Virus record (IMG/VR): IMGVR_UViG_3300021335_001807
Coordinates: 1-30,318 of that record
Direction: 5' to 3' (one strand)
From: a virus
Length of the DNA: 30,318 nt
Part shown: positions 1,182 through 20,124 of the stretch, in pieces
Position numbering within the stretch: position 1 is the first letter of the stretch
Layout of the letters: the number at the start of each line of letters is the position of its first letter
The notes under the pieces: model-generated
What the model saw: the letters and a program-made list of their open reading frames with translations, nothing else
Databases searched by the model: none
Told to the model about the DNA's origin: nothing
Translations under genes and position numbers: made by a program

Positions 1182-1403
1182 ATGGCAGAATTAATAAAAC
1201 ATGCATTAGGATTTTGTGGAGAGCATTGGCATCCAAACTTTTGGACTCTTCTCACAGGAGGATTTGGATTAGTGGGTATTTATCATTATACTATATCTTA
1301 TCTTAAATGCAGATATAAAAAATTTAAAACAGCGTTTGCCTATACGCTTTATAATACCTGGCAAAATTTAATTAATTATTTATCATGGCGAAAAATGTCG
1401 TAG
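1182..1403 (+). CDS. Small single-pass membrane protein, unknown function
   Basis: 73 aa. A hydrophobic stretch at about residues 20-41 (FWTLLTGGFGLVGIYHYTIS) is long enough to span the membrane. It is followed by a basic Lys/Arg/Tyr-rich segment, which by the positive-inside rule would lie in the cytoplasm. The C-terminus overlaps the queC start by 19 bases, so it is co-transcribed and probably translationally coupled with queC. No family recognised. Confidence 0.6.
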   Translation: MAELIKHALGFCGEHWHPNFWTLLTGGFGLVGIYHYTISYLKCRYKKFKTAFAYTLYNTWQNLINYLSWRKMS

Positions 1404-2215
1404 TGTCCTTATCTGGAGGGATGGACTCCTCTACTTTATTACTTAGATGTTTATCTGAGTATGACAGTGTAACAGCTTTATCTTTTGATTATGGTCAAAA
1501 ACATAGAGTAGAACTTGAAAGAGCTCAATCATTAGTAGATTATATTAATGGGCTTGAAAACAAAGCAGCAGAAGATGGACAAAAAGCTCCATATAATCCT
1601 GTCAAATACCAAGTTATTAAATTAGATGGTTTAGTTAACTTGTTAGATTCTAACCTTGTAGAAGGTGGAGAAGATGTACCAGAAGGTCATTATGAAGAAG
1701 AAAATATGATAGCAACTGTTGTACCTAACAGAAATAAAATTTTCTCTTCATTGACTCAAGCAGTAGCATTATCTGTATCTAAAAGAACAGGAGAAGAATG
1801 TGATATTGCTTTAGGTATTCATGCTGGTGATCATGCAATTTATCCTGATTGTAGACAAGAATTTAGAGATGCTGATTACGAAGCTTTCAAAATTGGTAAT
1901 TGGGATGCTGATAAAGTAGGATTTTTTATACCTTATATTGATACTGATAAATTAGGAATTTTAAAAGATGGAGAAGTACTTGTTGATAAATTGGGTATTG
2001 AATTTGATGAAGTTTATAAAAGAACAAATACTTCTTATAAGCCATATCCTTCAGGAAATAGTGATTATAAGTCTGCTTCTAGTGTTGAGAGGATTGAGGC
2101 TTTTATTGCTCTGGGGAGAAAAGATCCTGTACAGTATGAGGATGAAACTGGAGAAGTTGATTACGAAGTAGCAAAATCTCATGTAGAAAAGCTACTAGCT
2201 GAATACTCAGCTTAA
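1385..2215 (+). CDS. queC: 7-cyano-7-deazaguanine (preQ0) synthase QueC, zinc cysteines lost
   Basis: QueC converts 7-carboxy-7-deazaguanine, ammonia and ATP to preQ0 in the cytoplasm. The PP-loop ATP site SGGMDSS is at residues 10-16. Further QueC-type blocks are VVPNRNKIF and IYPDCRQEF. The protein is 276 aa, longer than the usual 220-240, with extra sequence around residues 50-60 and 180-200. The C-terminal region aligns by eye with the family's zinc-binding loop and the RLEAF helix (here VERIEAF), but all four expected cysteines are replaced (Tyr, Asp and Ser present instead). Either the phage enzyme folds without structural zinc or this is a diverged PP-loop enzyme. Queuosine-pathway neighbours favour QueC. 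The ATG start overlaps the membrane-protein gene. Confidence 0.85.
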   Translation: MAKNVVVSLSGGMDSSTLLLRCLSEYDSVTALSFDYGQKHRVELERAQSLVDYINGLENKAAEDGQKAPYNPVKYQVIKLDGLVNLLDSNLVEGGEDVPEGHYEEENMIATVVPNRNKIFSSLTQAVALSVSKRTGEECDIALGIHAGDHAIYPDCRQEFRDADYEAFKIGNWDADKVGFFIPYIDTDKLGILKDGEVLVDKLGIEFDEVYKRTNTSYKPYPSGNSDYKSASSVERIEAFIALGRKDPVQYEDETGEVDYEVAKSHVEKLLAEYSA

Positions 2216-2223
2216 AAAACGTA

Positions 2224-2296
2224 TGGCTCGTGGTGTAACTGGCAACACGTCTGGTTTTGGTCCAGAAGAGTCTAGGTTCGATCCCTAGCGAGCCAA
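2224..2296 (+). tRNA. tRNA-Gln (anticodon UUG)
   Basis: A complete cloverleaf can be folded by hand: acceptor stem TGGCTCG/CGAGCCA (2224-2230 with 2289-2295, including the U1-A72 pair typical of tRNA-Gln), D arm around GTGT..ACAC, anticodon stem TCTGG/CCAGA with loop TTTTGGT (anticodon TTG) and T arm CTAGG-TTCGATC-CCTAG. The discriminator is A at 2296 and CCA is not encoded. It lies 8 bases after queC and 14 bases before the next coding start, so it must be excised from an mRNA-type transcript. Gln-UUG is not a queuosine-modified tRNA (those have GUN anticodons), so its place in the block is unlikely to reflect Q modification. It would read CAA, the usual Gln codon in this AT-rich genome. Confidence 0.95.
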
Positions 2297-2310
2297 CTAA
2301 ATTTAATTAT

Positions 2311-2508
2311 ATGAAAGATTTTAATAATATTGAAAAAGATAGAAAAAATTTAGAACATATGCCTGATCAAAAATTACATCAGGTTATTAGTTTTATCAAA
2401 TCAGGAATTAGAATAGTTGGATATGGACTTTTACTATATAACGTGCCAATTGCAGTAGGAGTTCTTATATTAAGTGAAGCAATTGGTATAATTGAAGAAT
2501 TAGTGTAA
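2311..2508 (+). CDS. Small membrane protein, unknown function
   Basis: 65 aa. The frame can be extended upstream into the tRNA gene, but that is not plausible, so the ATG at 2311 (MKDFNN) is chosen. The N-terminal half is charged; residues about 35-58 are hydrophobic (IVGYGLLLYNVPIAVGVLIL) and could form one or two membrane segments. The stop overlaps the thioredoxin start by one base (TAATG). Family not recognised. Confidence 0.65.
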   Translation: MKDFNNIEKDRKNLEHMPDQKLHQVISFIKSGIRIVGYGLLLYNVPIAVGVLILSEAIGIIEELV

Positions 2509-2756
2509 TGAAGAAAATCTTATATTTTAGTGCAGCATGGTGTGGTCCATGTCAAACATTAGGTCCTATTATGGAGTCTTTAAAAGGAGATATTAATTAT
2601 CAAAAAATTGATGTAGATAATAATCAAGATTTATCTATGCAATATGGGGTAAGAAATATTCCTACTTTAATTTTATTAGATGAAACTGGTGAAGTTAAAG
2701 GAAGAAAAGTAGGGTTACAAACAAAACAAGACATTTTAAATTTTTATAATGGGTAA
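2508..2756 (+). CDS. Thioredoxin
   Basis: 82 aa, a compact thioredoxin fold. The redox motif WCGPC is at residues 11-15 and the cis-proline region is NIPTL near residues 51-55. It starts directly at the first beta strand (MKKILYF), so the usual N-terminal helix and strand are missing and it is shorter than cellular thioredoxins (about 105 aa), as often seen in phage versions. It would reduce disulfides in the cytoplasm, for instance as an electron donor for ribonucleotide reductase or another phage enzyme. No reductase gene is in the window. Overlaps queD by 8 bases. Confidence 0.9.
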   Translation: MKKILYFSAAWCGPCQTLGPIMESLKGDINYQKIDVDNNQDLSMQYGVRNIPTLILLDETGEVKGRKVGLQTKQDILNFYNG

Positions 2757-3213
2757 ATTTCAATCTAGCAAAGTATTTGATGGTTTTTCTACAGTATTTC
2801 GTCAATGGAGAGCTACAACAACACACTGTAGATTTGTACATGGTTATGGTATTTCATTTAAAGTATATTTTGAGGGAGATTTAGATGATAGAAATTGGGT
2901 TTGGGATTTTGGTGGTATGAAAAGAGCAAAAACTAAAATCGATGGTAAATCTCCTAAGGAATGGATGGATTATATGTTTGATCATACTTTAGTAGTGGCG
3001 GAAGATGATCCAGAATTAAAAGCATTTCAACAAATGGATACAGCAGGAGTAGCTCAGGTAAGAGTAATCCCAGCTACGGGTGCAGAAAAATTTGCAGAAT
3101 TTATATTTAATAAAATTAATGAATTTGTTCAAACTGAAACTGAAAACAGAGTAAAAGTTGTTAAAGTTAAGTTTATGGAACATGGTAAAAACGCAGCTTA
3201 TTATGTCGCTTAA
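2749..3213 (+). CDS. queD: 6-carboxy-5,6,7,8-tetrahydropterin synthase (QueD family), variant active site
   Basis: QueD turns dihydroneopterin triphosphate into 6-carboxytetrahydropterin, the second step to preQ0. Family landmarks: the Cys and His of HCRFVHGY (residues 26-33), WVWDFGGMK (50-58), FDHTLVVAEDDP (77-88) with the catalytic His region, and GAEKFAEFI in place of the usual PTAENLA helix. In canonical QueD the metal is held by three His including an HGH pair. Here the second of the pair is Tyr (HGY) and no clear upstream His is seen. I recall HGYxxSF as a recurring variant in some bacterial and phage homologues, so activity is still plausible. 154 aa, slightly longer than the usual 120-140. 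Confidence 0.85.
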   Translation: MGKFQSSKVFDGFSTVFRQWRATTTHCRFVHGYGISFKVYFEGDLDDRNWVWDFGGMKRAKTKIDGKSPKEWMDYMFDHTLVVAEDDPELKAFQQMDTAGVAQVRVIPATGAEKFAEFIFNKINEFVQTETENRVKVVKVKFMEHGKNAAYYVA

Positions 3214-3979
3214 AAGAATTGAAGATTATAACAAAGTATTGCCTGTATTAGAACTTTATACAGCAGTACAATCAGAGGGTAGTAGGCAAGGCTACCCTAC
3301 TATTGTAGTTAGAACAACAGGTTGTACCCATAGATGTTATTTTGGAGAAGGGGGTTGGTGTGATTCTTGGTATACAAGTATCCACCCAGAAAAAGGTACT
3401 TTTTGTTTCCAAGATATAATTAATATGTACGATGCAAATCCTCATATTAAAGAAATGATGTTAACAGGAGGTTCTCCTACTATGCATCCTAAGTTAGTTA
3501 ACGAATTAACACATTTAGCTCATGAAAGGGATATTTTCATTACTATTGAAACTGAAGGATCTCATTTCCTTCCCACTGATTATCCTATCAATCTTCTTAG
3601 TATTTCTCCTAAATTTAGTAATAGCATCCCCGTTATTGGTGCTACTACTCCTCAGGGAGCGATTGTTGACGAAAGGATGGTTAAAAAACACAACTCAAAA
3701 AGAGTAAATATTGAAGCAATAAAACAATCTATTGATTATCATTCTGATTATCATATTAAACCTGTATTAGATAAAGAATTATCTATGGTAGGTGAAGTAG
3801 AAGATTTCCTTAAAGAATGTAACATACCAGATAGTAAAGTTTGGGCAATGCCTGCTGGGGATGATAGAGAATCATTAATGGAATCATATCCAACCGTTAT
3901 GAATTTTGTTAGAGATAGAGGATGGCGTTTTACAGGCCGTTCACATATCATGGCATTTAATACAGAAAGGTGTGTCTAG
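3203..3979 (+). CDS. queE: 7-carboxy-7-deazaguanine synthase QueE (radical SAM), atypical cluster loop
   Basis: QueE is the radical SAM enzyme that contracts 6-carboxytetrahydropterin to 7-carboxy-7-deazaguanine. Family signs: ELYTAVQSEGSRQGYPTIVVR near the N-terminus (cf. E.F.S.QGEG..G.p..FvR) and the cluster cysteines in TTGCTHRC at residues 38-45 with GWCDSW at 51-56. Spacing is C-x3-C-x7-C rather than C-x3-C-x2-C. TGGSP replaces the usual TGGEP, and SPKFS follows. The frame extends upstream inside queD, but ATG 3203 (MSLKRI) gives a 258-aa protein and a short overlap with queD, so it is preferred. It ends inside the next small gene. Confidence 0.87.
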   Translation: MSLKRIEDYNKVLPVLELYTAVQSEGSRQGYPTIVVRTTGCTHRCYFGEGGWCDSWYTSIHPEKGTFCFQDIINMYDANPHIKEMMLTGGSPTMHPKLVNELTHLAHERDIFITIETEGSHFLPTDYPINLLSISPKFSNSIPVIGATTPQGAIVDERMVKKHNSKRVNIEAIKQSIDYHSDYHIKPVLDKELSMVGEVEDFLKECNIPDSKVWAMPAGDDRESLMESYPTVMNFVRDRGWRFTGRSHIMAFNTERCV

Positions 3980-4106
3980 GGAAGAAGCTCTTAGTATATT
4001 AGAAGAAATAGAGGAAAATGTAACTACATGCTGTGCCATTACTATGGAGCCAGATGAAGTACTAGTATTAATAGATAAATTAAAAGAATATTTAAATGGA
4101 GAATAA
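3906..4106 (+). CDS. Small helical protein, unknown function (start uncertain)
   Basis: 66 aa if read from TTG 3906, which lies 74 bases inside queE; 44 aa if read from GTG 3972, which overlaps the queE stop by only 8 bases. The sequence HLIQKGVSREEALSILEEI looks like two amphipathic helices, and the part before GTG 3972 appears to belong to the same helix, slightly favouring the longer form. The end overlaps the folE start by 11 bases. The overlaps on both sides and the continuous frame support a real gene, but I do not recognise a family. Confidence 0.5.
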   Translation: MLEIEDGVLQAVHISWHLIQKGVSREEALSILEEIEENVTTCCAITMEPDEVLVLIDKLKEYLNGE

Positions 4107-4791
4107 ACGTAGAAAAAAACATGAGAATTTAGAGGTTGTACCAATTGGTTTTGCAAATGGAGTTGCACCTGGATTTCCATTCACCGATAAAGAAAAAGAA
4201 AAAATGATTAATAGAGCAGAAAAAGCTTATGGTAAGTTTTTAGATGCTCTAGAATGTGACTGGAGAAATGATCCTAATTCAATGGAAACCCCTAGACGAG
4301 TAGCTAAAGCTTATGTTAATGATTTATGGGCCGGCAGATATACAGCTATGTCTCCTATTACATCATTCCCATCAGATGGTTATGATGGTGTAATTATAGA
4401 ACGTAATATACCGTTAACTTCAATGTGTTCTCATCATCACCAAACAATAGGTGGAGTTGTACATATTGGTTACATTGCAGGAGAAGATGGTCAAGTAATT
4501 GGTTTATCTAAATTAAATAGAATTGTAGAATTATTTGGTCGTAGAGGAGCAATCCAAGAACAATTAACATCAGCTATCCATAATGCAGTAGATAAAATTA
4601 CCGAAGGTAATAAAGGTGTTATTGTAACTATTGTAGGTACTCATAACTGTGTATCTTGTAGAGGTGTAAAACATCAAGGAGCAGCAATGGTTACTACAAA
4701 AGCATCAGGAAAATTTAGAGATGATAATAATTTAGCTCGTAAAGAATTTTTTGATAGCTTAAAAATTAATAACGGAGGACACAATATTTAA
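4096..4791 (+). CDS. folE: GTP cyclohydrolase I
   Basis: FolE opens GTP to dihydroneopterin triphosphate, the entry step to the 7-deazaguanine pathway and also to folate. Signature blocks: TPRRVAKAY (65-73), TSMCSHHHQTIGG (108-120), IGLSKLNRIV (135-144), FGRRGAIQEQLT (147-158) and GTHNCVSCRGVKHQG (181-195). Zinc ligands Cys111, His114 and Cys185 are recognisable. 231 aa, close to the 190-225 aa usual for the family plus a basic N-terminal tail. In phages this gene commonly accompanies queC/D/E and feeds DNA modification. It completes the GTP-to-preQ0 set here. Confidence 0.95.
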   Translation: MENKRRKKHENLEVVPIGFANGVAPGFPFTDKEKEKMINRAEKAYGKFLDALECDWRNDPNSMETPRRVAKAYVNDLWAGRYTAMSPITSFPSDGYDGVIIERNIPLTSMCSHHHQTIGGVVHIGYIAGEDGQVIGLSKLNRIVELFGRRGAIQEQLTSAIHNAVDKITEGNKGVIVTIVGTHNCVSCRGVKHQGAAMVTTKASGKFRDDNNLARKEFFDSLKINNGGHNI

Positions 4792-5340: not shown

Positions 5341-5884
5341 ACAATTAGAATTTGCATACCAATGGGAAAAATTAAGAGACGTCCCATTTGTAAATGAAGT
5401 AGAAGAATTTAATGCCACATTTGGCAAACCAAACAATTATGAACCGACAATACCAGAAAAAAAAGAATGGCAATTCGTATACGACTTTGTACTTGAAGAA
5501 TTGGAAGAATATAGACAGGCTTGCGAAAACGGAAACATCGTGGAAGTTTTGGATGCTTTGTGCGACATTGCTTATGTTTCCCTCGGGAACGGTACTATGC
5601 TACATGGCCTTAAGGATAAGATATGGCCAGCGTATAAAGAGGTACAAGCCAGTAATATGTCGAAGTCTTGTAGCACTGAGAAAGAAGCCATGGAAACTGT
5701 CACCATCCGCTCTAAAGAACAAAATGAGCCATGTCACTATGAGAAAGTGGAGGAGAGATTTGTAGTATATAGAACTCGAGATAGAAAAGTAATGAAATCA
5801 ATTAATTATTTTAGACCTGATCTAACTCAGTTTTTTACAGGAGATGAATTACAAAGGTTTCACAATACAAGTGCAGGAATATAA
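5333..5884 (+). CDS. MazG-like NTP pyrophosphohydrolase with extra C-terminal domain
   Basis: 183 aa. Residues 45-80 carry the MazG/all-alpha NTP-PPase pattern: EELEEYRQA (55-63) and VLDALCDIAYV (72-82), giving the E-x-x-E...E/D-x-x-D metal site. It probably hydrolyses (d)NTPs to monophosphates plus PPi, for example to shape the nucleotide pool. Residues from about 115 on are an unassigned domain. Bases about 5405-5765 have a composition unlike the surroundings: hand counts give about 42-43 % G+C in two 60-base rows, against 17 % in the row just upstream. Codons such as TGC, CTC, GGG, CGC and AAC are common there. This suggests recent exchange with a relative of different codon use. Confidence 0.75.
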   Translation: MGKQLEFAYQWEKLRDVPFVNEVEEFNATFGKPNNYEPTIPEKKEWQFVYDFVLEELEEYRQACENGNIVEVLDALCDIAYVSLGNGTMLHGLKDKIWPAYKEVQASNMSKSCSTEKEAMETVTIRSKEQNEPCHYEKVEERFVVYRTRDRKVMKSINYFRPDLTQFFTGDELQRFHNTSAGI

Positions 5885-7587
5885 TGTATAAAAAGTGTTA
5901 TGCTACCAGATTAGGAAATAATAAGTATAAGATTCATTTATGGGACGAAGGTGGCTATGATGAAATCGAGTGGCATAATCCTGCTTATCAAGAATGTTCT
6001 AAAGAAGAGGCAACTTTTACTGGTTTAAGTGGAGAGCCTCTTCGAAAAATTTATAAATGGGATAAAAACACCCCCAACTTACATTTCCATGATATAACTC
6101 CGTATCAAAAATATCTTATTGAAAAATATGGTGTTGATGATAAACCTTCTACAGGTCATAAAGAATTATTTTTTGATATTGAGTGTGAAATTGGAGGAGC
6201 TTTAACTGAAGAATATATTGAAAGAGCCCCTATGCCTATTACTACAATAGCATACTGGGATAAATCAGAAGATCATTGGGTTATTTTAGTTCGTGATGAT
6301 AAAGGTGAATTAAAGCGTACTAAAGCTAAAAATAAAGAAATTGTACCTTGTAGAACAGAACAAGAAATATTAGCTAAATTTTTAGAACGTTTTAGAGAAA
6401 TTGATCCCGATATTTTAATTGGTTATAACAGTGATTTCTTTGATATACCTTATCTATATTATAGAATGTGTAATGTATTAGGTCAAGAATGGGCTGATCA
6501 ATTGTCTCCAATTGGTAAAGTAAATGCTAAAAAGAATAATCAATATTTTTTTAAACAAAACCAATTTGTAGATATTATTGGAGTTGAATCTTTAGACTAT
6601 ATGAGATTACATAAAAAATATAGTTGGAAAGACGAACCAAGTTGGAAATTAGATGCTATTGGAGAAAAATATACTGGAATAGGTAAAGTTGATTATGAAG
6701 GTAATCTTGATCAATTATTTGAAACAGACCTACAAAAATATATTCAGTATAACTTTCGTGATGTTGAAATATTAAAATTATTAGATGAAAAACTTCAATA
6801 TATTGCTTTAACTAAAAATCTATCTCATAAAGGAAAACATAACTATAGTGAGGTTTATGCAAATAGTAAAACTCAAGATGGTGCAATCTCAGCTTATTTA
6901 TTGTCCCAAAATATAATCCCACCAGGTAAGGATCCTAACCCTAGAAGTAAAAAAGGATACGCTGGTGGTTACCTTTTTTGCCCTAAAGCTGGATTGTACA
7001 AATATATGTTTGATGAAGATTTAACATCACTGTATCCATCTATAATTATGTCTTTAAACATAGGACGAGAAACATTCAAGGGACGTATCATTGATGCTGA
7101 TGATCGCAATAATAGATTGGGTCTTAATGATTTAAAAGAACGTGATCAAGATGAAGAATTATTAGTTGAAAATGCTAAAGGACAACAAACTAGAGTTAAT
7201 GTTGGAAGATTAATTTCTATGGTTGAACAAAATAATTTAACATTATCAGCTAATGGTTGTATGTTTACTACTGATAGGCAATCAACATTATCTACAGTAT
7301 TAGCTAAGTGGTTTGATGAACGTAAATTATATAAAGGCAAAATGAAGGATGCCTATAAATCAGGTAATAAAGAAAAGGGTGCTTATTACCATTTAATGCA
7401 ATATACAATGAAGATTTTGCTTAATAGTTTATATGGTGCTACAGCATTACCTTCGTTTAGATATGGGATGAGTTTATCTATACTAAGCGAAGCCATTACT
7501 CTATCAGGCCACAGAATTATTCAAGAATCAGCTTTATGTGCTAATAGACATATGAATAAAGTTTTAAGAGGAGAATTAACATTATGA
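5884..7587 (+). CDS. 43A: DNA polymerase PolB, N-terminal subunit of a split gp43
   Basis: 567 aa holding the 3'-5' exonuclease and most of the polymerase domain of a T4-type PolB enzyme. Exo I is FDIECE (97-102), Exo II GYNSDFFDIPY (180-190) and Exo III YNFRDVEIL (289-297). Polymerase motif A is DLTSLYPSIIMS (379-390) and motif B is the KILLNSLYG region (510-518). Motif C (YxDTDS) is absent and the frame stops at 7587, shortly after the fingers helix region. The missing part is encoded at 8586-9542. No catalytic residue is lost from the pair, so the two chains probably assemble into one enzyme, as reported for gp43A/gp43B of Aeromonas phage 44RR. The start overlaps MazG by one base. Confidence 0.93.
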   Translation: MYKKCYATRLGNNKYKIHLWDEGGYDEIEWHNPAYQECSKEEATFTGLSGEPLRKIYKWDKNTPNLHFHDITPYQKYLIEKYGVDDKPSTGHKELFFDIECEIGGALTEEYIERAPMPITTIAYWDKSEDHWVILVRDDKGELKRTKAKNKEIVPCRTEQEILAKFLERFREIDPDILIGYNSDFFDIPYLYYRMCNVLGQEWADQLSPIGKVNAKKNNQYFFKQNQFVDIIGVESLDYMRLHKKYSWKDEPSWKLDAIGEKYTGIGKVDYEGNLDQLFETDLQKYIQYNFRDVEILKLLDEKLQYIALTKNLSHKGKHNYSEVYANSKTQDGAISAYLLSQNIIPPGKDPNPRSKKGYAGGYLFCPKAGLYKYMFDEDLTSLYPSIIMSLNIGRETFKGRIIDADDRNNRLGLNDLKERDQDEELLVENAKGQQTRVNVGRLISMVEQNNLTLSANGCMFTTDRQSTLSTVLAKWFDERKLYKGKMKDAYKSGNKEKGAYYHLMQYTMKILLNSLYGATALPSFRYGMSLSILSEAITLSGHRIIQESALCANRHMNKVLRGELTL

Positions 7588-7931
7588 AATACGAAGTAGA
7601 AAGTAGACCTTGGGGTATGTACGAAGTATTATTAGACTCCCCTGAATGTAAAGTAAAAAGAATATCAGTAGCCCCTGAATCTAGATTATCATACCAGTAC
7701 CATACTAAAAGAAAAGAAACCTGGACTGTAATTAAAGGTAATTTAACTATTATTTTAGATGGAGAAAAATTATTTAGAGGTCCTGGACAGTCAATTAAAA
7801 TTCCTTTAGGAGCTAAACATAGAGCTTGGAATGAAACAGATGAATTAGTTCAATTTATTGAAGTTCAAACTGGAGATTATTTTGGTGAAGACGATATAAT
7901 AAGAATAGAAGACGATTATAAAAGAAATTAA
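7584..7931 (+). CDS. Cupin, mannose-6-phosphate isomerase type II-like
   Basis: 115 aa single cupin matching the C-terminal domain of type II phosphomannose isomerase / mannose-1-phosphate guanylyltransferase: RPWGMYEVL (8-16), VKRISVAPESRLSYQYH (24-40), ETWTVIKGNLTI (45-56), IKIPLGAKHR (71-80) and ending EDDIIRIEDDY. Metal ligands are likely Gln38, His40, Glu45 and His79. The reaction would be mannose-6-phosphate to fructose-6-phosphate, supplying sugar nucleotides to the glycan cluster 10 kb downstream (inference). Its ATG overlaps the stop of the polymerase N-terminal cistron as ATGA. It is the first of three genes lying between the polymerase halves. Confidence 0.82.
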   Translation: MKYEVESRPWGMYEVLLDSPECKVKRISVAPESRLSYQYHTKRKETWTVIKGNLTIILDGEKLFRGPGQSIKIPLGAKHRAWNETDELVQFIEVQTGDYFGEDDIIRIEDDYKRN

Positions 7932-7932
7932 T

Positions 7933-8199
7933 ATGGCTTTAAGTAAACAATCAATCAGAAAAGGAATGCACATCACAGTAAATGGTGATGAAGTAAGTAA
8001 GGATGAACTAATATTAATTAGTGAAGAGTGGAGTGAAATTCAAGAAAACTTTTTTAGAAAAATGTTAAAGCAGGGAGGACATTTTAGACTAAAAGGAGTT
8101 AAGTATATAATTGAACTCCAAAAATCAGATAATTTAAGATCTGATGGAAATAAAGATAGCGGAGTAATACAAATTCCAGGAGAAGATAGTAGATTTTAG
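7933..8199 (+). CDS. Unknown small protein between the polymerase halves
   Basis: 88 aa, lysine- and glutamate-rich, with a predicted short beta N-terminus (GMHITVNGDEV) and a helix around residues 28-47. No motif I can assign. It begins 1 base after the cupin stop and ends 3 bases before the DUF6165-like gene, so it is part of the inserted three-gene unit. The ATG is preceded by an A/T-rich stretch without a Shine-Dalgarno sequence. Confidence 0.65.
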   Translation: MALSKQSIRKGMHITVNGDEVSKDELILISEEWSEIQENFFRKMLKQGGHFRLKGVKYIIELQKSDNLRSDGNKDSGVIQIPGEDSRF

Positions 8200-8202
8200 A
8201 TT

Positions 8203-8589
8203 ATGAAAATAGAAGTATCAAACGGAGAGTTATTAGACAAAATTTCAATTTTAGAATTAAAATTACTTAAAATTGAAGATGAAGATAAATTAGTTAATAT
8301 TAGGAAAGAATTTGAAACATTAAATCCTTTAGCTAAAAAATTATTTGAAACATTTGGAGGTAATTTACAAAATCATTATCTTGAACTAGCTCGTATAAAT
8401 GGGTTATTATGGGATATTGAAGATTGGATTAGAGATTGTGAGCGTGAAAAAAGGTTTGATGAAGAATTTATTCAATTAGCAAGATCTGTTTATGTTACTA
8501 ATGATCAAAGAAGTGAAGTTAAAAAACTTATTAATAAAACAACTGGATCAGATTTGGTAGAAGAAAAATCATATAAAGATTACAAGTGA
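8203..8589 (+). CDS. DUF6165-like protein
   Basis: 128 aa, almost entirely helical. The N-terminus MKIEVSNGELLDKISILELK resembles, from memory, the DUF6165 family, found near glycosyltransferase genes in bacteria and marine phages, whose function is not known to me. The rest (LFETFGGNLQNHYLELARIN, WDIEDWIRDCERE) fits the same family shape. Together with the neighbouring mannose-type cupin it hints that the insert between the polymerase halves is glycan-related cargo. The end overlaps the second polymerase cistron as GTGA. Confidence 0.6.
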   Translation: MKIEVSNGELLDKISILELKLLKIEDEDKLVNIRKEFETLNPLAKKLFETFGGNLQNHYLELARINGLLWDIEDWIRDCEREKRFDEEFIQLARSVYVTNDQRSEVKKLINKTTGSDLVEEKSYKDYK

Positions 8590-9542
8590 AACATTTAGAA
8601 GAAACACCTTGGTTTATTTGCGATAAAGAAGATGAGAATTATTGTGCTTATGTAGACACTGATTCTAATTATTTTAATGCTGAACCCATATTAAAATATT
8701 TGTACCCTGATTTTGAATCATTCTCAGATGAAGAAAAAGATGAAAAATTAGAAGGTGTGGCTTTAGCATATCAAGATATTATTACTGAACATTATGATAA
8801 TTTAGCTACTGATTGTTTTAATGTTAAACAGTTTGAATGGTTTGATAAACCACATTGGCTTGAAATGAAGACTGAATGTGTAATAAGATCAGCCTATTTT
8901 AGAGCAACAAGGCGATATGCACAATGGATTACTAAACAAGAGGGCATTGCTAAAGAAACTTTAGATATTAAAGGTTTAGAGTTTATGAAAGCAAATTTTC
9001 CCCCAATATTAGGGGATTTCTTTAATGATATTCTTCAACAGGTTCTAAAAGGAGAACAACATAAAAGCATTATAGAACAAATTAAAATATTTAAAACACA
9101 AATTTTAGATGGCACTATTCCTTTAGCTAAATTAGGTAATCCTACTGCTGTTAAAAAACTAGATAAATATAGTGGTAAAAGTGCCCGTGCAGGTGAAATG
9201 TTTACTGAAATTTTAAAAGGTGCTCCTGCACCTGTAAGAGCAGCTATTCGTTATAATGATTTACTTAGGTTATGGCAATTAGATAGAAAATATAATCTAA
9301 TTACAATGGCAGATAAAGTAAAATGGATTTATTTAAAAGATAATCCTTATAAAATAGAAGCATTAGCATTTTTTGATTATGAAATGCCAGAAAAAATAGT
9401 TGATTTTTTAGATACTTATGCTGATAGACAGAAAGTATTTGATTCAATATTATTAAATAAATTAGAAGGGTTTTTTAGTGACTTAGGTTGGTCTCTTAAT
9501 TTAAATCCCTATGTAAATGCTTTAAAAAGTTTTGAAATATGA
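8586..9542 (+). CDS. 43B: DNA polymerase PolB, C-terminal subunit of a split gp43
   Basis: 318 aa. Motif C AYVDTDSNYF is at residues 21-30, with the two catalytic aspartates at 24 and 26. The palm end and thumb follow (KTECVIRSAYFRATRRYAQW, and KLDKYSGKSARAGEMF). It contains none of motifs A or B, so it cannot polymerise alone and must pair with the product of 5884-7587. The junction corresponds to the loop before GDTDS in T4 gp43, so the whole protein is accounted for. The start is GTG at 8586, inside the overlap GTGA with the preceding gene; a start in the coupled position fits the dense layout. The sliding clamp gene follows after one tiny gene. Confidence 0.93.
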   Translation: MKHLEETPWFICDKEDENYCAYVDTDSNYFNAEPILKYLYPDFESFSDEEKDEKLEGVALAYQDIITEHYDNLATDCFNVKQFEWFDKPHWLEMKTECVIRSAYFRATRRYAQWITKQEGIAKETLDIKGLEFMKANFPPILGDFFNDILQQVLKGEQHKSIIEQIKIFKTQILDGTIPLAKLGNPTAVKKLDKYSGKSARAGEMFTEILKGAPAPVRAAIRYNDLLRLWQLDRKYNLITMADKVKWIYLKDNPYKIEALAFFDYEMPEKIVDFLDTYADRQKVFDSILLNKLEGFFSDLGWSLNLNPYVNALKSFEI

Positions 9543-9714: not shown

Positions 9715-10440
9715 ATGATAAGTAAAAGTCAATTAAGCAGTGTTATATCAAAATATTACCTAAATGGTCTGAATAATCAGGTTAAATGGAGAATTAAAGA
9801 TAATACACTTACAATTTATGCTGGTGAAGCAGGTAGAGTATGTAAAGTAGTAGCTGAAAACTTCCCATTAGAAGATGCTGAATTAGGAGTATTTGATACT
9901 AATAAATTAAATAAATTATTATCTATTACTAATGGTGATTTAATGATATCATTAGAAAAAATGAAAGCAATTTATACTAAAATGCATATTCAGGATTCTA
10001 ATTATAATTTAACTTACTCATTAGCTGATACCTTAATTTTAGGGAAAAATGTTTGGTATGAAGATCCTGAAGAATTAGATATTGATATAGTATTAGAATC
10101 AGAAGATATAGATGCTTTAATTAAAGCTAAAAATGCATTAGGTGATATAGATAATATGTTAATTACTACAACTAATGATTTTGATGGTAATAATATTTGC
10201 GAGTTTATATTTGGGGATAATACAGGATTTTCTAATAAAATTACTTATCAAGTAAATGGAGGTAAAATTAAGGATAACACCCTAAGTGTTCCATTTAATT
10301 CTGATATTTTCAAAGATATATTAAATAATAATAAAGACATGGATTTTTGTACTTTAAAATTATCTAATACTGGAATACTAAAAATAGAATTTGAATCAGA
10401 GGATATTAAAAGTGAATATTTTGTCGCAAGAAACGAATAA
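9715..10440 (+). CDS. 45: Sliding clamp (T4 gp45-like)
   Basis: 241 aa, close to T4 gp45 (228 aa), and placed directly after the polymerase and before the clamp-loader unit, as expected for the phage replisome. Family-type features are weak at sequence level but consistent: GVFDTNKLNKLLSI (98-111) resembles the first-domain helix region of phage clamps. Two similar halves rich in beta strands are visible, ending in LKIEFESEDIKSEYFVARNE. It would encircle DNA and tether the split polymerase, and in T4 it also activates late transcription. The assignment rests on context plus this motif. It opens immediately downstream of a TTTCGTATATT element. Confidence 0.8.
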   Translation: MISKSQLSSVISKYYLNGLNNQVKWRIKDNTLTIYAGEAGRVCKVVAENFPLEDAELGVFDTNKLNKLLSITNGDLMISLEKMKAIYTKMHIQDSNYNLTYSLADTLILGKNVWYEDPEELDIDIVLESEDIDALIKAKNALGDIDNMLITTTNDFDGNNICEFIFGDNTGFSNKITYQVNGGKIKDNTLSVPFNSDIFKDILNNNKDMDFCTLKLSNTGILKIEFESEDIKSEYFVARNE

Positions 10441-10905: not shown

Positions 10906-11328
10906 ATGAGTACATTAGAAATCTTTGAAAGGCAGATTAGTCCTTTCGACATTTTATTTAGAAATCTTTTTAACGCTGAGTCGCAATTCGCACCAGCATT
11001 ACAATCAAAACAACCACATCCCGTTAATATCTTTTATGATGATAAAGGACTTCATTTTGAAGTTGCCTGTACAGGACTAACTAAAAAAGAAGTTGATATC
11101 AACATTGAAGGGGATATTTTGAAAATCTCTTATAAAAAACCCGAAGCTGAAGAATTTCATGAGGGTACAATTTATAATGGGTTATCAAAAAAATCATTTA
11201 ATTTAGGATATAAGATAGCTCCTAAATTTGATTTAAGTGAAGCAACTGCTGAATTGGCAAATGGGCTTTTAGTCATTTTTATTCCAATTGCTGAAGAAGC
11301 TAAACCAAAGTCTATCAAAATTAAGTAA
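10906..11328 (+). CDS. Small heat-shock protein (Hsp20/alpha-crystallin)
   Basis: 140 aa. The alpha-crystallin domain spans about residues 38-130: VNIFYDDKGLHFEVACTGL, VDINIEGDILKISYK and the late strand NGLLVIFIPIAEEAKPKSIK. The C-terminal IKIK gives an IxI-like motif used by sHsps for oligomer assembly. It would bind unfolding proteins and hand them on. Standing in the same region as phage groES and groEL it suggests a phage-encoded folding kit for virion or replisome proteins. It lies between two non-coding gaps, so it may be a single-gene transcript. The first 100 or so bases are richer in C than the surrounding genes. Confidence 0.9.
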   Translation: MSTLEIFERQISPFDILFRNLFNAESQFAPALQSKQPHPVNIFYDDKGLHFEVACTGLTKKEVDINIEGDILKISYKKPEAEEFHEGTIYNGLSKKSFNLGYKIAPKFDLSEATAELANGLLVIFIPIAEEAKPKSIKIK

Positions 11329-11344
11329 TAAGTTTTATTAAAAT

Positions 11345-11367
11345 ATGTGTCCTAGCACATTGTTTTT
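11345..11367 (+). terminator. Weak hairpin plus T-run after hsp20
   Basis: ATGTG (11345-11349) pairs with CACAT (11356-11360) around the loop TCCTAG, followed by TGTTTTT. It lies 16 bases after the hsp20 stop. The stem is only 5 bp and AT-rich, so this is a weak terminator candidate. The T-run is also the beginning of the TTTTTCGTATATT motif at 11363. Confidence 0.35.
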
Positions 11368-11375
11368 CGTATATT
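11363..11375 (+). promoter_or_regulatory. TTTTTCGTATATT motif before the groES/groEL unit
   Basis: Second copy of the recurring motif, 23 bases upstream of the ATG at 11399. This spacing would allow a normal leader if TATATT is a -10 box. It probably drives the 107-aa gene, groES and groEL. The downstream context CACGTTA matches the copy at 9698. Confidence 0.55.
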
Positions 11376-11398
11376 CACGTTACAAATAAATAAGTTAT

Positions 11399-11722
11399 AT
11401 GTCAGATACTAAGCGTAGAAAATCAATACAAATTATTACAGATCCATTATTAGAACCTTTCTTTATTACTAAAGATGAATATAGCTATACTGTTAAACAA
11501 AATGTTAAATCAGATAGTTCCCATTTTAGAAGTAAAGGAAAATCTAAAACCTATGAAAAATCATTATACTATTACCCCCAATTTGATCAAGCTATAAATA
11601 AAATAGCAGAATTAAAATCACAGTTTGGTGACTATAATAGTATAAAAAATTATTTAGAAGATTATAAAAAAATTAGTAACCAAATAAAAAAATACACAAA
11701 TGGAATTAGAAGCGTTATTTGA
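11399..11722 (+). CDS. Phage protein of unknown function upstream of groES
   Basis: 107 aa, basic and Tyr/Lys-rich. The stretches LEPFFITKDEYSYTV, HFRSKGKSKTYEKSLYYYPQ and a C-terminal helix (INKIAELK...IKNYLEDYKKIS) recall small hypothetical proteins of marine T4-like phages, but I cannot name a function. The start ATG is at the end of AATAAATAAGTTATATG. The last 23 bases overlap groES, so it is translationally coupled to the chaperonin genes. Confidence 0.7.
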   Translation: MSDTKRRKSIQIITDPLLEPFFITKDEYSYTVKQNVKSDSSHFRSKGKSKTYEKSLYYYPQFDQAINKIAELKSQFGDYNSIKNYLEDYKKISNQIKKYTNGIRSVI

Positions 11723-12068
11723 TGCTGTTATAGTTAAACCTAAAGAAACAGAAGAAACTACTTATGGTAACATTATTGTTCCTGATATAGGTAAGGAAAA
11801 AAATGAAATAGGTAAGGTTATAGCAGTAGGTCCGGGAAAACCAACAATTACAGGAGAATTTATCCCAACACAATTAAAAATAGGAGATGAAGTAGTTTTA
11901 CCTACTATGGGATTTACCAGATTACCTTATAACGGAGAAGAATATTACGTGGGTCCCGAAAATCAAATTCTTGCTAAAATTAGTCAAAAAGTTGACGTAG
12001 CAGAAATATTAGAAGAAACTAAAGAGTCATTAACTGAAGAAGAAATTAAAGATTTATCAAATGAGTAA
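11700..12068 (+). CDS. groS: Co-chaperonin GroES
   Basis: 122 aa. GroES-type features: LFDAVIVKPKETEETTYGNI, whose second half is the mobile loop that contacts GroEL; GKVIAVGPGK; LKIGDEVVLP; and YYVGPENQILAKI, close to the family C-terminal pattern. The usual length is about 97 aa; here an acidic C-terminal tail of roughly 20 residues (LEETKESLTEEEIKDLSNE) is added. It caps the GroEL chamber. T4 carries only a GroES substitute (gp31); here the partner groEL follows with an 8-base overlap. Confidence 0.9.
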   Translation: MELEALFDAVIVKPKETEETTYGNIIVPDIGKEKNEIGKVIAVGPGKPTITGEFIPTQLKIGDEVVLPTMGFTRLPYNGEEYYVGPENQILAKISQKVDVAEILEETKESLTEEEIKDLSNE

Positions 12069-13680
12069 ACAAGTTATATTAGGTTCAGAAGCAAGAACCA
12101 ATTTAGTAGAGGGAATTGATATATTAGCAGATGCTGTTGTATCAACATTAGGACCTAATGGTAGAAATGTAGTAATTGCTAATAATGGATTTCCACAATC
12201 TACAAAAGATGGAGTTACTGTTGCCAAATCCATAACTCTAAAAGACCCTAATCAAGAATTAGGAGTTCAATTAGTAAAACAAGCTGCGATTAAGACAGCT
12301 GAAAAAGCAGGTGATGGTACTACTACATCTACTTTATTAGCTAGAGAAATGATTAAAGCAGGATTAACAGCCTTAAATAATAACGAAAACGCAGTTCAAA
12401 TTAAAAGGGATATTGATTCTACAGTTAAAGAAATAGTCAATAATCTTAAAAATAACATATCAGAAGATATTTCTGGAGAAGAACAACTAGAACAGATTGC
12501 ATCAATATCAGCAAATAATGACCCAGAAACTGGAAAATTAATTGCTACAGCAATTGAAAAAGTTGGAATGGAAGGGGTTGTCCATATTGAAGAATCTCGC
12601 ACAGGTGAAACTTACCTTGAAACTGTTGAAGGGTTACAGTTTGGTAGAGGGTATAAATCACCATATTTTGTTACAAATAATAGTAATATGACTGCCACAT
12701 TGGACAACCCCTTAATTCTAATTGCGGATCAAAAAATAACTCAAGTAAAAGAATTATTACCAATTTTAGAAGCAGTTGGGGCACAAGCAAAATCACTTTT
12801 AATTATTGCTGAGGATATTGATAATGAAGCATTAGCTACCCTTATTGTTAATAAAATGAGAGGCACAATGAAAGTATGTGCTGTAAAAGCTCCTGACTTT
12901 GGTGATAGGAGAAAATTAGTATTAGAGGATATAGCTATTACAACTGGAGGAGTAGTATTTGACAAACAAAAAGGTATGAAACTTGATAAATTTAGTTGGG
13001 AATGGTTTGGAGAAGCGAGAACAGTAACAGTAGAAAAAGAACAAACAACAATAGTAGATGGAAAAGGATCAGTTGAATCAATTGAAACACGTGTTGAAGA
13101 ACTACAGCAACAAATCGACAAGGCAACAACGCCGTTCGAAGTCGAAAAACTCCAAGAAAGGTTGGCGAAATTCGTCGGAGGAGTAGCTATTATTCATGTA
13201 GGAGGAAACACTGAAACTGAAATGAAGGAGAAAAAAGACAGAGTTGATGATGCTTTACATGCAACAAAAGCAGCTATAGAAGAGGGTATTGTCCCAGGAG
13301 GGGGAACAGCATTATTATATGCCTCTAATGGTTTAAAAGCTAATACAACAGGAGCTCAAATTGTAGTAGAAGCATGTGCTAAACCTTTTAATCAAATTTT
13401 AGTTAATGCTGGATATGATAAAGTAAAAGGACAAATATTAGCTGATCAATTATGTAATTCTGGTAATGATGCTTGGGCAGGTTATAATATTAAAACTGAT
13501 GAAATAGTTAATATGAAAGAATCTGGAATTATTGATCCTACTAAGGTGGCTAGGACAGCCCTTGAAAATGCTGCTTCTGTAGCGGGCACTGTTTTACTAA
13601 CTGAATGTACAGTAGTTGATGACCCAGAAGAAGAATCTCAACAACCACAAATTGATCCATCAATGATGGGGATGATGTAA
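12061..13680 (+). CDS. groL: Chaperonin GroEL
   Basis: 539 aa, full length (E. coli 548). TLGPNGRNV (29-37), TKDGVTVAK (48-56) and the ATP-site AGDGTTTST (83-91) are intact. VEEGIVPGGG-type and VAGTVLLTE blocks are present near the C-terminus. The C-terminal tail is short (DPSMMGMM) instead of repeated GGM. With GroES it would form a complete phage chaperonin, perhaps to fold viral proteins the host machine handles poorly. Bases about 13085-13190 have unusually high G+C for this genome (about 43 % by hand count in one row), with TCG, GCG, ACG and CTC codons. Confidence 0.97.
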   Translation: MSKQVILGSEARTNLVEGIDILADAVVSTLGPNGRNVVIANNGFPQSTKDGVTVAKSITLKDPNQELGVQLVKQAAIKTAEKAGDGTTTSTLLAREMIKAGLTALNNNENAVQIKRDIDSTVKEIVNNLKNNISEDISGEEQLEQIASISANNDPETGKLIATAIEKVGMEGVVHIEESRTGETYLETVEGLQFGRGYKSPYFVTNNSNMTATLDNPLILIADQKITQVKELLPILEAVGAQAKSLLIIAEDIDNEALATLIVNKMRGTMKVCAVKAPDFGDRRKLVLEDIAITTGGVVFDKQKGMKLDKFSWEWFGEARTVTVEKEQTTIVDGKGSVESIETRVEELQQQIDKATTPFEVEKLQERLAKFVGGVAIIHVGGNTETEMKEKKDRVDDALHATKAAIEEGIVPGGGTALLYASNGLKANTTGAQIVVEACAKPFNQILVNAGYDKVKGQILADQLCNSGNDAWAGYNIKTDEIVNMKESGIIDPTKVARTALENAASVAGTVLLTECTVVDDPEEESQQPQIDPSMMGMM

Positions 13681-17389: not shown

Positions 17390-18829
17390 ATGAATAAAAG
17401 TTTTAAATACCTTCCTCAAGATAAGAGGAAAAAAATACTATTAATCTGTGATGATATTAGAGTACACTCAGGTGTTGCCACAATAGCAAAAGAAATAGTA
17501 ACCCATACAGCTCACCATTTTAATTGGGTACAAATGGCGGGGGCAATAAACCACCCAGATAAAGGAAAAAAATTAGATTTATCTTCAGATACTAATAAAG
17601 TAGCTGATATAGAGGATTCTTTTGTAAGACTTTATCCCGTTGATGGTTATGGTAATCCAACAATTTTAAGGCAAGTCATATCATTTGAAAAACCAGATGC
17701 TATAATGCTTTTTACTGATCCAAGATACTTTACATGGGTATTTAATATGGAGCATGAAATAAGAAAACAAATCCCTATTGCCTATTTAAATATTTGGGAT
17801 GATTATCCTGCTCCAATGTATAATAAACCCTATTATGAAGCTTGTGATTTGTTAATGGGTATATCAAAACAAACAGTTAATATAAATAAACTAGTACTTA
17901 ATGATAAAAAAGATAGTAAAATTTTTAAGTATATTCCTCATGGAAAAAACCCAAAAATATATTATCCAATTGTAGAGGAAAATAAAGATTACTTAGAATT
18001 TAGAAATAAAGTATTTGGTAATGCAAAACCAGAATTTGTTGTATACTTTAATTCTAGAAATATACGAAGAAAACAAATACCAGATACAATGTTAGCTTTT
18101 AGGGCATTTTTAGATTCTTTACCTAAGGAAAAATCAAAAAATTGTTTTCTTTTATTAAAAACAGAACTAGTTACGGATGCAGGAACTGATTTACCAAGAG
18201 TAAAAGAATATTTCTTTGGAGAAGAGTATGATAATAATGTTAAATTTATAGAGTCTAAATTAGAGGAAAAACATTTAAATTATCTATATAATATAGCAGA
18301 TGTTCAAATTTTACTAACCTCAAATGAAGGTTGGGGATTAACAATTACTGAAGCAATACTATCAGGTACTCCTATTATAGCAAATACTACAGGTGGTATG
18401 CAAGATCAAATGAGGTTTGTTGATGAGAATGGAGAATGGTTTACTCCTAGTGCTGATATACCTTCTAATCATAGAGGAACATATAAAGAACATGGAGAAT
18501 GGGCTTTCCCAGTTTATCCAACTAGTAGATCAATTCAAGGTTCTCCCCCAACTCCATATATTTACGATGATAGATGTAAATGGGAAGATGCTTTAGAACG
18601 AATTAAAGAAGTCTATAATTTAAGTTCTGAAGAACGTAGAACTAAAGGGTTAAAAGGAAGAGAATGGGCCCTAAGTGAGGAAGCAGGTTTTACATCTGAA
18701 CATCAAGGAAAAAGAGTTATAGAAGCATTTGATGAATTATTTGATACTTGGAAACCAAGAGAAAAGTATGAAATAGTAAGTGCTAATGAATATAAAGGAA
18801 AAAATTTAAATCATAAATTATTTTATTAA
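17390..18829 (+). CDS. Glycosyltransferase, GT4-like
   Basis: 479 aa, two Rossmann halves (GT-B). The N-terminal part has KKILLICDDIRVHSGVATIA (14-33), with the SG(V) loop near the first strand. In the C-terminal half, EEKHLNYLYNIADVQILLTS leads to NEGWGLTITEAILSGTPIIA, which is the GT4 donor-binding E-x7-E signature. It would move a sugar from a nucleotide-sugar donor to a glycan or protein acceptor in the cytoplasm. It is the first enzyme of the glycan block and overlaps the next glycosyltransferase by one base (TAATG). The donor sugar cannot be inferred. Confidence 0.85.
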   Translation: MNKSFKYLPQDKRKKILLICDDIRVHSGVATIAKEIVTHTAHHFNWVQMAGAINHPDKGKKLDLSSDTNKVADIEDSFVRLYPVDGYGNPTILRQVISFEKPDAIMLFTDPRYFTWVFNMEHEIRKQIPIAYLNIWDDYPAPMYNKPYYEACDLLMGISKQTVNINKLVLNDKKDSKIFKYIPHGKNPKIYYPIVEENKDYLEFRNKVFGNAKPEFVVYFNSRNIRRKQIPDTMLAFRAFLDSLPKEKSKNCFLLLKTELVTDAGTDLPRVKEYFFGEEYDNNVKFIESKLEEKHLNYLYNIADVQILLTSNEGWGLTITEAILSGTPIIANTTGGMQDQMRFVDENGEWFTPSADIPSNHRGTYKEHGEWAFPVYPTSRSIQGSPPTPYIYDDRCKWEDALERIKEVYNLSSEERRTKGLKGREWALSEEAGFTSEHQGKRVIEAFDELFDTWKPREKYEIVSANEYKGKNLNHKLFY

Positions 18830-20124
18830 TGAGTAAGCCAAGATTTGTAATAAGTTGCCCTTTTGACACATATTCAGGATATGGAGGACGTAGTCGTGAT
18901 ATAGTTAAGGCAATAATAGAATTAGATAAATATGAAGTACAACTTTTACCTCAAAAATGGGGGGAAACTTCCTGGGGATTCTGCAATGATCACCCTGAAT
19001 GGAAATTTCTAAATAAATATGTAGCCCCACAAAACTGGCAACAAACTAAACCAGATTTATGGATGCAAATAACTATACCAAATGAATTCCAACCTATAGG
19101 AAAATATAATATAGGATTAACTGCTGGTATTGAAGCAACAGGATGCAAACCTGAATGGATTGAAGGATTAAATAGAATGGATATAAATTGGGTATCTTCT
19201 AATTTTGCAAAACAAACTTTTGAATCTATGTCTTTTGAAAAAAAAGATCAAAGAACTAACCAAACAGTGAGTATACTTAAATTAGAAAAGCCTATTGAAG
19301 TTATATTTGAAGGAGCAGATTTGACTACTTATAAACCCATATCTCCCAAAGAAATTAAAACTATTAAACTTGATGAAGTTAAAGAAAGTTTTGCTTTTCT
19401 ATTTGTAGGACATTGGATGCAAGGTGAATTTGGTCATGATAGAAAAAATGTAGGTGTATTAATTAAATCTTTTTATGAAGCATTCAAAAACAAATCAGGC
19501 CAAAAACCAGCACTAATATTAAAATGTTCTACAGGTGTAGCTTCTTATATGAGTAGGGATTCTATTTTAGATAGAATAAAACAAATTAGAACGTTAGTTA
19601 ATTCTTCAAATCTACCTAATATCTATATTTTAAATGGAGAATTTAATGATTCAGAAATGAATGAATTATATAACCACCCAAAAGTAAAAGCAATGGTTAG
19701 TGCTACTAAAGGAGAGGGATTTGGTAGACCTTTACTAGAATTTAGTTTAACAGGAAAACCTATTATAGCTTCGGGGTGGTCAGGACATACAGACTTTCTT
19801 AATCCTGAATATGTAGCTTTAGTCCCTGGTTCTTTAGAAAAAGTACATAAAAGTGCTGCAAATAATTGGTTAATAGAACAGGCACAATGGTTTAAAATTA
19901 ATGAATCTGACTTAAGGAAATCTTTTAAATCTTGTTTTAAAAAATATAAACAATTCCACCAAAAATCTAAAAGGCAAAAATATTATGCTAAAGAAAATTT
20001 TAGTTGGGAAGAAATGAAAAAATTGGTAGGAAAGATTTTATCATCTAATGTCCCAGATTTCCCAAAACAAGTAGAATTAAATTTACCTAAATTAAATTTA
20101 CCTAAATTACAAAAACTAAAATAA
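18829..20124 (+). CDS. Glycosyltransferase, GT4-like (second)
   Basis: 431 aa. An N-terminal segment, FVISCPFDTYSGYGGRSRDI (5-24), contains a glycine-rich acceptor-side loop. The C-terminal KGEGFGRPLLEFSLTGKPII is the donor-binding signature; a WSGHTDFL motif follows. The protein resembles its upstream neighbour in fold order but not in detail, so it is not an evident tandem duplicate. The C-terminus ends in two copies of the pentapeptide LNLPK from a 15-base tandem repeat (see 20077-20106). It shares one base with the neighbour on each side. Confidence 0.8.
   Translation: MSKPRFVISCPFDTYSGYGGRSRDIVKAIIELDKYEVQLLPQKWGETSWGFCNDHPEWKFLNKYVAPQNWQQTKPDLWMQITIPNEFQPIGKYNIGLTAGIEATGCKPEWIEGLNRMDINWVSSNFAKQTFESMSFEKKDQRTNQTVSILKLEKPIEVIFEGADLTTYKPISPKEIKTIKLDEVKESFAFLFVGHWMQGEFGHDRKNVGVLIKSFYEAFKNKSGQKPALILKCSTGVASYMSRDSILDRIKQIRTLVNSSNLPNIYILNGEFNDSEMNELYNHPKVKAMVSATKGEGFGRPLLEFSLTGKPIIASGWSGHTDFLNPEYVALVPGSLEKVHKSAANNWLIEQAQWFKINESDLRKSFKSCFKKYKQFHQKSKRQKYYAKENFSWEEMKKLVGKILSSNVPDFPKQVELNLPKLNLPKLQKLK
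20077..20106 (+). repeat. Two tandem copies of a 15-base unit
   Basis: TTAAATTTACCTAAA occurs twice in direct succession (20077-20091 and 20092-20106) near the 3' end of the second GT4 gene and keeps the frame, adding a second LNLPK to the protein tail. It probably arose by slippage and would be a length-variable site. Confidence 0.8.

Follow-up and report, generated by a model that had tools for sequence, protein, structure and literature searches.

A T4-type family B DNA polymerase (PolB) is encoded in two pieces in the virus record IMGVR_UViG_3300021335_001807, the whole of which (30,318 bases) was analysed here and is referred to below as the window. The two polymerase genes, 43A and 43B, are separated by three further protein genes, one of which, a small gene called c0, recurs at this place in relatives. 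The favored reading, to which we assign a probability of about 0.86, is that PolB works as two chains, that the split is old and shared by an entire lineage of a Far-T4-like phage group, and that the gap has turned into a cargo site inside an operon. According to this reading, PolB would be made as 43A, carrying the exonuclease, the fingers, and the palm portion with motifs A and B, and as 43B, carrying motif C, the remaining palm, and the thumb; 43A would have to pair with 43B for the palm sheet to be completed by the strands of motifs A and C. The cut would lie in a surface loop just before the motif C strand that has been lengthened in this lineage, and a single operon and message would encode both chains, with stop–start coupling driving their translation. 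The break would be ancient and lineage-wide, and the space between the cistrons would afterwards have become a site holding, on the coding strand, c0 nearly always and a fast-changing set of mostly sugar- and surface-related genes.

43A (5884–7587, plus strand, as are all features of this locus; 567 residues) is the N-terminal part of the polymerase, identified by Pfam, PHROG, and RB69 profile matches, and contains the 3'-5' exonuclease, the first part of the palm with motif A, and the fingers with motif B. It matches the Pfam families DNA_pol_B_exo1 (3.2e-20) and DNA_pol_B (8.5e-22), as well as PHROG 262 (6.2e-111). 43B (8586–9542; 318 residues) is the C-terminal part, comprising motif C, the remaining palm, and the thumb; it matches positions 565–842 of the PHROG 262 profile (2.4e-40) and, by profile, RB69 (2.5e-7). 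Exo I (DIECE, 6175–6189), Exo II (GYNSDFFDIP, 6421–6450), Exo III (YNFRD, 6748–6762), motif A (DLTSLYPS, 7018–7041), and motif B (KILLNSLYG, 7411–7437) lie in 43A, motif B being its final catalytic motif and invariant in the alignment of 43A relatives. Motif C (YVDTDS, 8649–8666) lies in 43B, where residues D24, T25, D26, and S27 are invariant in the alignment of relatives, and across the two genes the motifs stand in the order of T4-type gp43.

The initial annotation had placed the split between motif B and motif C and held that nothing was missing from the sum, and both points are borne out by the placed motifs, by 172 distinct junctions from viral contigs that agree on the split, and by the way in which the two halves meet. 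Profiles of 43A and 43B, each built from 27 divergent relatives, abut on RB69 gp43, with 43A ending near residue 609 and 43B starting near residue 607; because the half-profiles meet at about 607–609, the cut is located in the loop that leads from the helix after motif B to the strand of motif C. The terminus of 43A lies a few residues past the last palm helix, and 43B starts about 20 residues ahead of motif C. Judged from their sequences, 43A and 43B together are one full T4-type PolB from which no part has been lost. The coupling reported at both junctions is likewise present: the start of the cupin gene overlaps the stop of 43A in an ATGA (7584–7587), and the start of 43B overlaps the stop of the DUF6165 gene in a GTGA (8586–8589).

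From these data, we infer that 43A and 43B pair into an active enzyme. When modelled alone from a shallow alignment of 27 rows, 43B shows a confident thumb, and the model is matched by Foldseek to RB69/T4 gp43 (E = 1.8e-7, about 195 columns), while motif C and palm stretches (residues 1–27 and 92–135) fall below a predicted local distance difference test (pLDDT) score of 50; this weak confidence fits a palm that would need 43A. Distances in 43A and 43B correlate across the gap at 0.74 for near pairs, the halves apparently diverging in step, as expected of partners. Reassortment of the halves at the gap was considered and rejected, since the correlation within 43A is also 0.74 and extra exchange is not indicated. 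A programmed frameshift joining the halves was rejected as well, being impossible in filled gaps, and inspection of the empty junctions by eye revealed no slippery heptamer.

The split state extends well outside the window and is not attributable to chance. Searches with 43A, 43B, and c0 found several hundred loci, which the removal of copies reduced to the 172 distinct junctions; in all of them PolB is carried by two genes cut at the same site, with an in-frame fusion of the halves in 0/172, and contigs of metagenome-assembled genomes (MAGs) from a separate collection likewise show split 43A/43B. The ratio of nonsynonymous to synonymous substitution rates (dN/dS), in the pairs tested, is 0.02–0.155 for 43A, 0.03–0.084 for 43B, and 0.07–0.26 for c0, values indicating that both halves are under strong purifying selection. 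In eight large contigs from the clade (95–173 kb), no PolB match beyond 43A and 43B was found, PolA not having been searched in the split clade. The 172 junctions and the MAG contigs, the purifying selection, and the lack of another PolB therefore indicate that the locus did not arise by joining in assembly and has not decayed. The initial annotation had named a related genome with an assembly join at this interval, or an intact polymerase gene in raw reads, as what would overturn the split, and among the near relatives none is intact. One locus, L101, has an in-frame stop in the 43A/43B region and was omitted from the trees; sequencing error and decay are both possible there.

The gap of the window contains the three genes described earlier: a mannose-6-phosphate-isomerase-type cupin (7584–7931; 115 residues; Pfam MannoseP_isomer, 6.6e-27), c0 (7933–8199; 88 residues), which has no assigned function and no family match, and a DUF6165 protein (8203–8589; 128 residues; Pfam DUF6165, 7.4e-14). 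The cupin and DUF6165 genes are variable cargo that differ between relatives, the cluster of the window's cupin comprising 39 gap open reading frames (ORFs) among the 172 junctions, and c0 alone of the three is nearly constant. Altogether, c0 is present in 148 gaps, the genes of 8 further gaps do not include it, and in the 16 empty gaps 43A and 43B overlap by the 4-nt ATGA; gap length ranges from −4 to 5938 bases, with a median of 635. The first gap gene overlaps the end of 43A in 128/156 gaps, and among 363 ORFs predicted in the gaps, 362 lie on the coding strand, a proportion to which an ORF picker favoring the plus strand may have contributed.

A survey of the split site in related phages, as proposed in the initial annotation, uncovered both endonuclease-like genes and varied other cargo in the gap. 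The latter includes DegT-type aminotransferase, GNAT, pyridoxal-phosphate (PLP) enzyme, DAHP-synthase family, transaldolase family, and FkbM and other methyltransferase genes, together with formyltransferase, NAD epimerase, tryptophan halogenase, RmlC-type epimerase, glycosyltransferase, phosphomannomutase, PIG-L deacetylase, and 2-oxoglutarate (2OG) oxygenase genes. Judging by the family names, most of this cargo would suit sugar or surface chemistry, and it is presumably useful. The earlier description of metabolic cargo inserted in a replication gene is apt insofar as metabolic-type genes occupy the gap, but the cargo did not split the gene, because 16/172 junctions are empty and nevertheless split. 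The statement that the gap lacks a nuclease gene applies to the window, where the gap holds only the cupin, c0, and DUF6165 genes and the Pfam scan found no homing endonuclease, but not to all relatives: endonuclease-like genes occur in two subclades, between 43A and c0. In L427-429 the gene gives a GIY-YIG match at the cut-off, and in L381/L382/L397 it encodes a zinc-finger protein whose HNH match is sub-threshold. Elsewhere in the window, at 17390–20124 and 25477–26517, three glycosyltransferase genes (Pfam) show that sugar chemistry is also encoded outside the polymerase gap.

In trees of the joined halves, the split lineage forms one group versus distant intact outgroups. Empty gaps nest among filled ones, with five changes on the large tree, although the tree counts alone do not distinguish gain of cargo from its loss; because of this nesting, the genes must have remained two without cargo.

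Several observations weigh against the favored reading. The trees place two intact relatives, L460 and L463, beside a split subclade, and this placement means either that the break has been undone once or that the tree is wrong; the approximately unbiased (AU) test does not reject a tree that sets L460/L463 apart from every split row (p = 0.064). From the end of the helix to motif C, L460/L463 have 33 residues, which equals the sum in split L464 (12 + 21; the lengths in these three were counted by hand), versus about 13 in farther intact polymerases, and either lengthening of the loop preceded the cut, or the loop was cut and later rejoined on one occasion. The loop may also have been cut more than once, as LR756508, an uncultured 484-kb phage, is cut in the same loop, whereas Mel-JY01, with which it groups in the tree, is intact. 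In addition, the window shows no trace of the agent behind the original break, and the low confidence at motif C in the 43B model could stem from the shallow 27-row alignment instead of from a missing partner. As separate observations on these loci, the intact polymerase of L460 (3261–5927) has an unusual motif B, NSLCM for NSLYG, and a motif C of YEDTDS, L463 is 92% identical to L460, and two of the genes in the LR756508 break (270 and 251 residues) resemble paralogues of each other.

Other accounts of the arrangement were weighed against the two-chain reading. The window comes from a metagenome fragment, and a gap created by assembly or binning that united two loci would be conceivable for a single record, but the same state recurs, with differing gap contents, in 172 distinct junctions drawn from numerous metagenome records, and coupling overlaps stand at both gap edges, so that an artefact can practically be dismissed. 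Joining of the pieces after translation by a split intein, as in a fractured gene, is known in related PolBs, namely those of contig L360 and phage MIJ3 (PMC6892783); here it is hardly credible, since the Pfam scan finds no intein domain in 43A or 43B, and their termini are short, conserved, and devoid of intein blocks in 27 divergent pairs. Flavobacterium phage Immuto, a relative by its structural genes, carries PolA and no PolB, indicating that polymerases are replaceable in the wider group, and 43A and 43B could by analogy be relics in a genome replicated by a different polymerase. The retention of every motif, the low dN/dS of both halves, and the PolB search of the large contigs make this very improbable.

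The constancy of c0 raises the question of whether it is a functional third part of the enzyme, such as a bridge, a stabilizer, or a clamp contact, which would account for its place between the halves. It is found as a single copy in gaps of both main branches and is under selection, and searches of Mel-JY01 and of intact outgroup contigs did not find it there. However, it is lacking in 24/172 gaps, was not recovered at any other place when empty-gap contigs (five of which are 84–113 kb long) were searched, and changes faster than 43A and 43B; missing from those contigs, it is seemingly not indispensable to the enzyme in those lineages, and a role as a third part is doubtful. Searches of Pfam, PHROG, and PDB sequences and with Foldseek gave no match for c0, whose model reaches a pLDDT of only 69.5; it may assist the enzyme or be a passenger that arrived early. 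It also seems unlikely that the split has been kept as useful in itself, with a replicative polymerase constitutively assembled from 43A, 43B, and usually c0, and with the gap in this essential operon as a protected landing site at which surface and sugar genes are exchanged between phages while the halves stay together. As to the origin of the break, mobile elements interrupt this region of PolB in other related phages. In L360 (3001–7084), PolB is broken at or near motif C, the first piece ends with an intein N-terminal domain, a 322-residue ORF lies between the pieces, and the second piece opens with an intein-like end; in LR756508 (8001–15925), intein or Hint domains interrupt motif B and motif C in addition to the loop cut. 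A scan of viral contigs found no relatives of LR756508. Since such elements interrupt the region in relatives, the original break probably arose from an endonuclease or intein event. The more specific proposal that the cut arose through entry of a freestanding homing endonuclease gene into the loop, and that the endonuclease was later lost or replaced by cargo, is a serious candidate, somewhat short of even odds: GIY-YIG-/HNH-like genes lie in the gap in two subclades, and a precedent has been discussed for phage 25 and is known for the split nrdA of Aeh1 (PMC2988022), but the endonuclease-like genes are rare and nested and may have entered an existing gap, and the window itself retains no sign of one.

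At 1385–4791, the window carries consecutive genes for QueC, a QueD-type PTPS, a radical SAM protein (likely QueE), and GTP cyclohydrolase I, with a tRNA-Gln (ttg) gene at 2224–2297 inside the cluster. By sequence the cluster would represent a 7-deazaguanine pathway like that of Far-T4 clade 1, and it may serve in DNA modification. The gene at 9715–10440 stands where a sliding clamp would be expected; it is not recognized by Pfam or PHROGs, and it is a clamp candidate by position and by likeness to L460's neighbor only. Just downstream of it, at 10906–13680, lie Hsp20-like and GroES-like genes, both called by eye, and GroEL (Pfam Cpn60), which would form a phage-borne chaperonin set.

Split polymerases have so far been treated as rare accidents of homing elements. 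In the present case, such a replicase in two pieces seems to be the normal state of an entire, widespread lineage of uncultured, water-borne T4-like phages; the cut lies within the palm, a mere 20 residues or so ahead of catalytic motif C, and no intein is detectable. Nearly 200 two-chain polymerases, with empty or cargo-filled gaps, together with two intact relatives, form a natural set in which one can test directly how a split enzyme assembles, whether gene fission is irreversible, and how an essential operon serves as a site for cargo. The two-part PolB scaffold may also be of use for conditional polymerases.

The closest precedent lies in Aeromonas phages 44RR and 25, in which gp43 is split into 43A and 43B (Petrov, Ratnayaka and Karam 2010, cited in PMC2988022); in phage 25 the two chains co-purify and show polymerase activity (PMC2988022). 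The likeness to these phages drawn in the initial annotation holds in principle, in that a T4-type PolB is encoded as two chains, but it does not extend to the site. The 44RR cut falls in the fingers, about 50 alignment columns upstream of motif B, whereas that of the window falls after motif B and just before motif C; in alignment columns, the 44RR split is at 637, motif B at 687, the split of the window at 766, and motif C at 794, and a shared split site is thereby ruled out (637 versus 766). The Aeromonas gap consists of an untranslated spacer or a seg endonuclease gene, with an intron in 43B of phage 25 in addition, whereas that of the window contains three co-directional protein genes. 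The PolB gene of phage MIJ3 is divided by a split intein together with an HNH endonuclease gene (PMC6892783). MIJ3 and L360 resemble the window in having PolB in two pieces with an intervening gene, in L360 at or near motif C; they differ in that their pieces carry intein halves able to rejoin, no intein domain having been detected in the window. LR756508 shares the same-loop cut, with about 3 kb of other genes between the pieces, one of them encoding a cytidine deaminase, and a clamp-like gene just downstream, as in the window, but it is distant (33%), has intein or Hint domains in motifs B and C, and lacks c0 in the gap.

By gene content, the window appears to fit Far-T4 clade 1, for which Que genes, GTP cyclohydrolase, phosphoribosyltransferase (PRT), DNA polymerase, and a heat-shock protein (Hsp) have been listed (Roux et al. 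2015, PMC4360716); it shares the queuosine-pathway genes, GTP cyclohydrolase, phosphoribosyltransferase, DNA polymerase, and a heat-shock gene with that clade, and the gp23, gp20, and gp17 genes were not found in the window. A term search of the main text of PMC4360716 returned no mention of a split polymerase. The terminase and portal of relatives match, in order, those of Immuto, Mel-JY01, LR756508, and RM378. Flavobacterium phage Immuto (MW353175) is the nearest cultured phage to a 166-kb contig of the split clade (terminase 61%, portal 58%), but differs in having PolA, with no PolB or c0 match found. RM378 gave no match to this polymerase in a 49-kb stretch that represents part of its genome. 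Several MAG contigs with the split gene have been binned as Flavobacteriaceae, which is a weak hint at the host. No report of the split in this lineage was found in the literature searched, although subscription journals may hold one. Two-piece PolB is known from a few phages, and what is new here is the point of the cut, its extent across a lineage, and the cargo carried between the halves.

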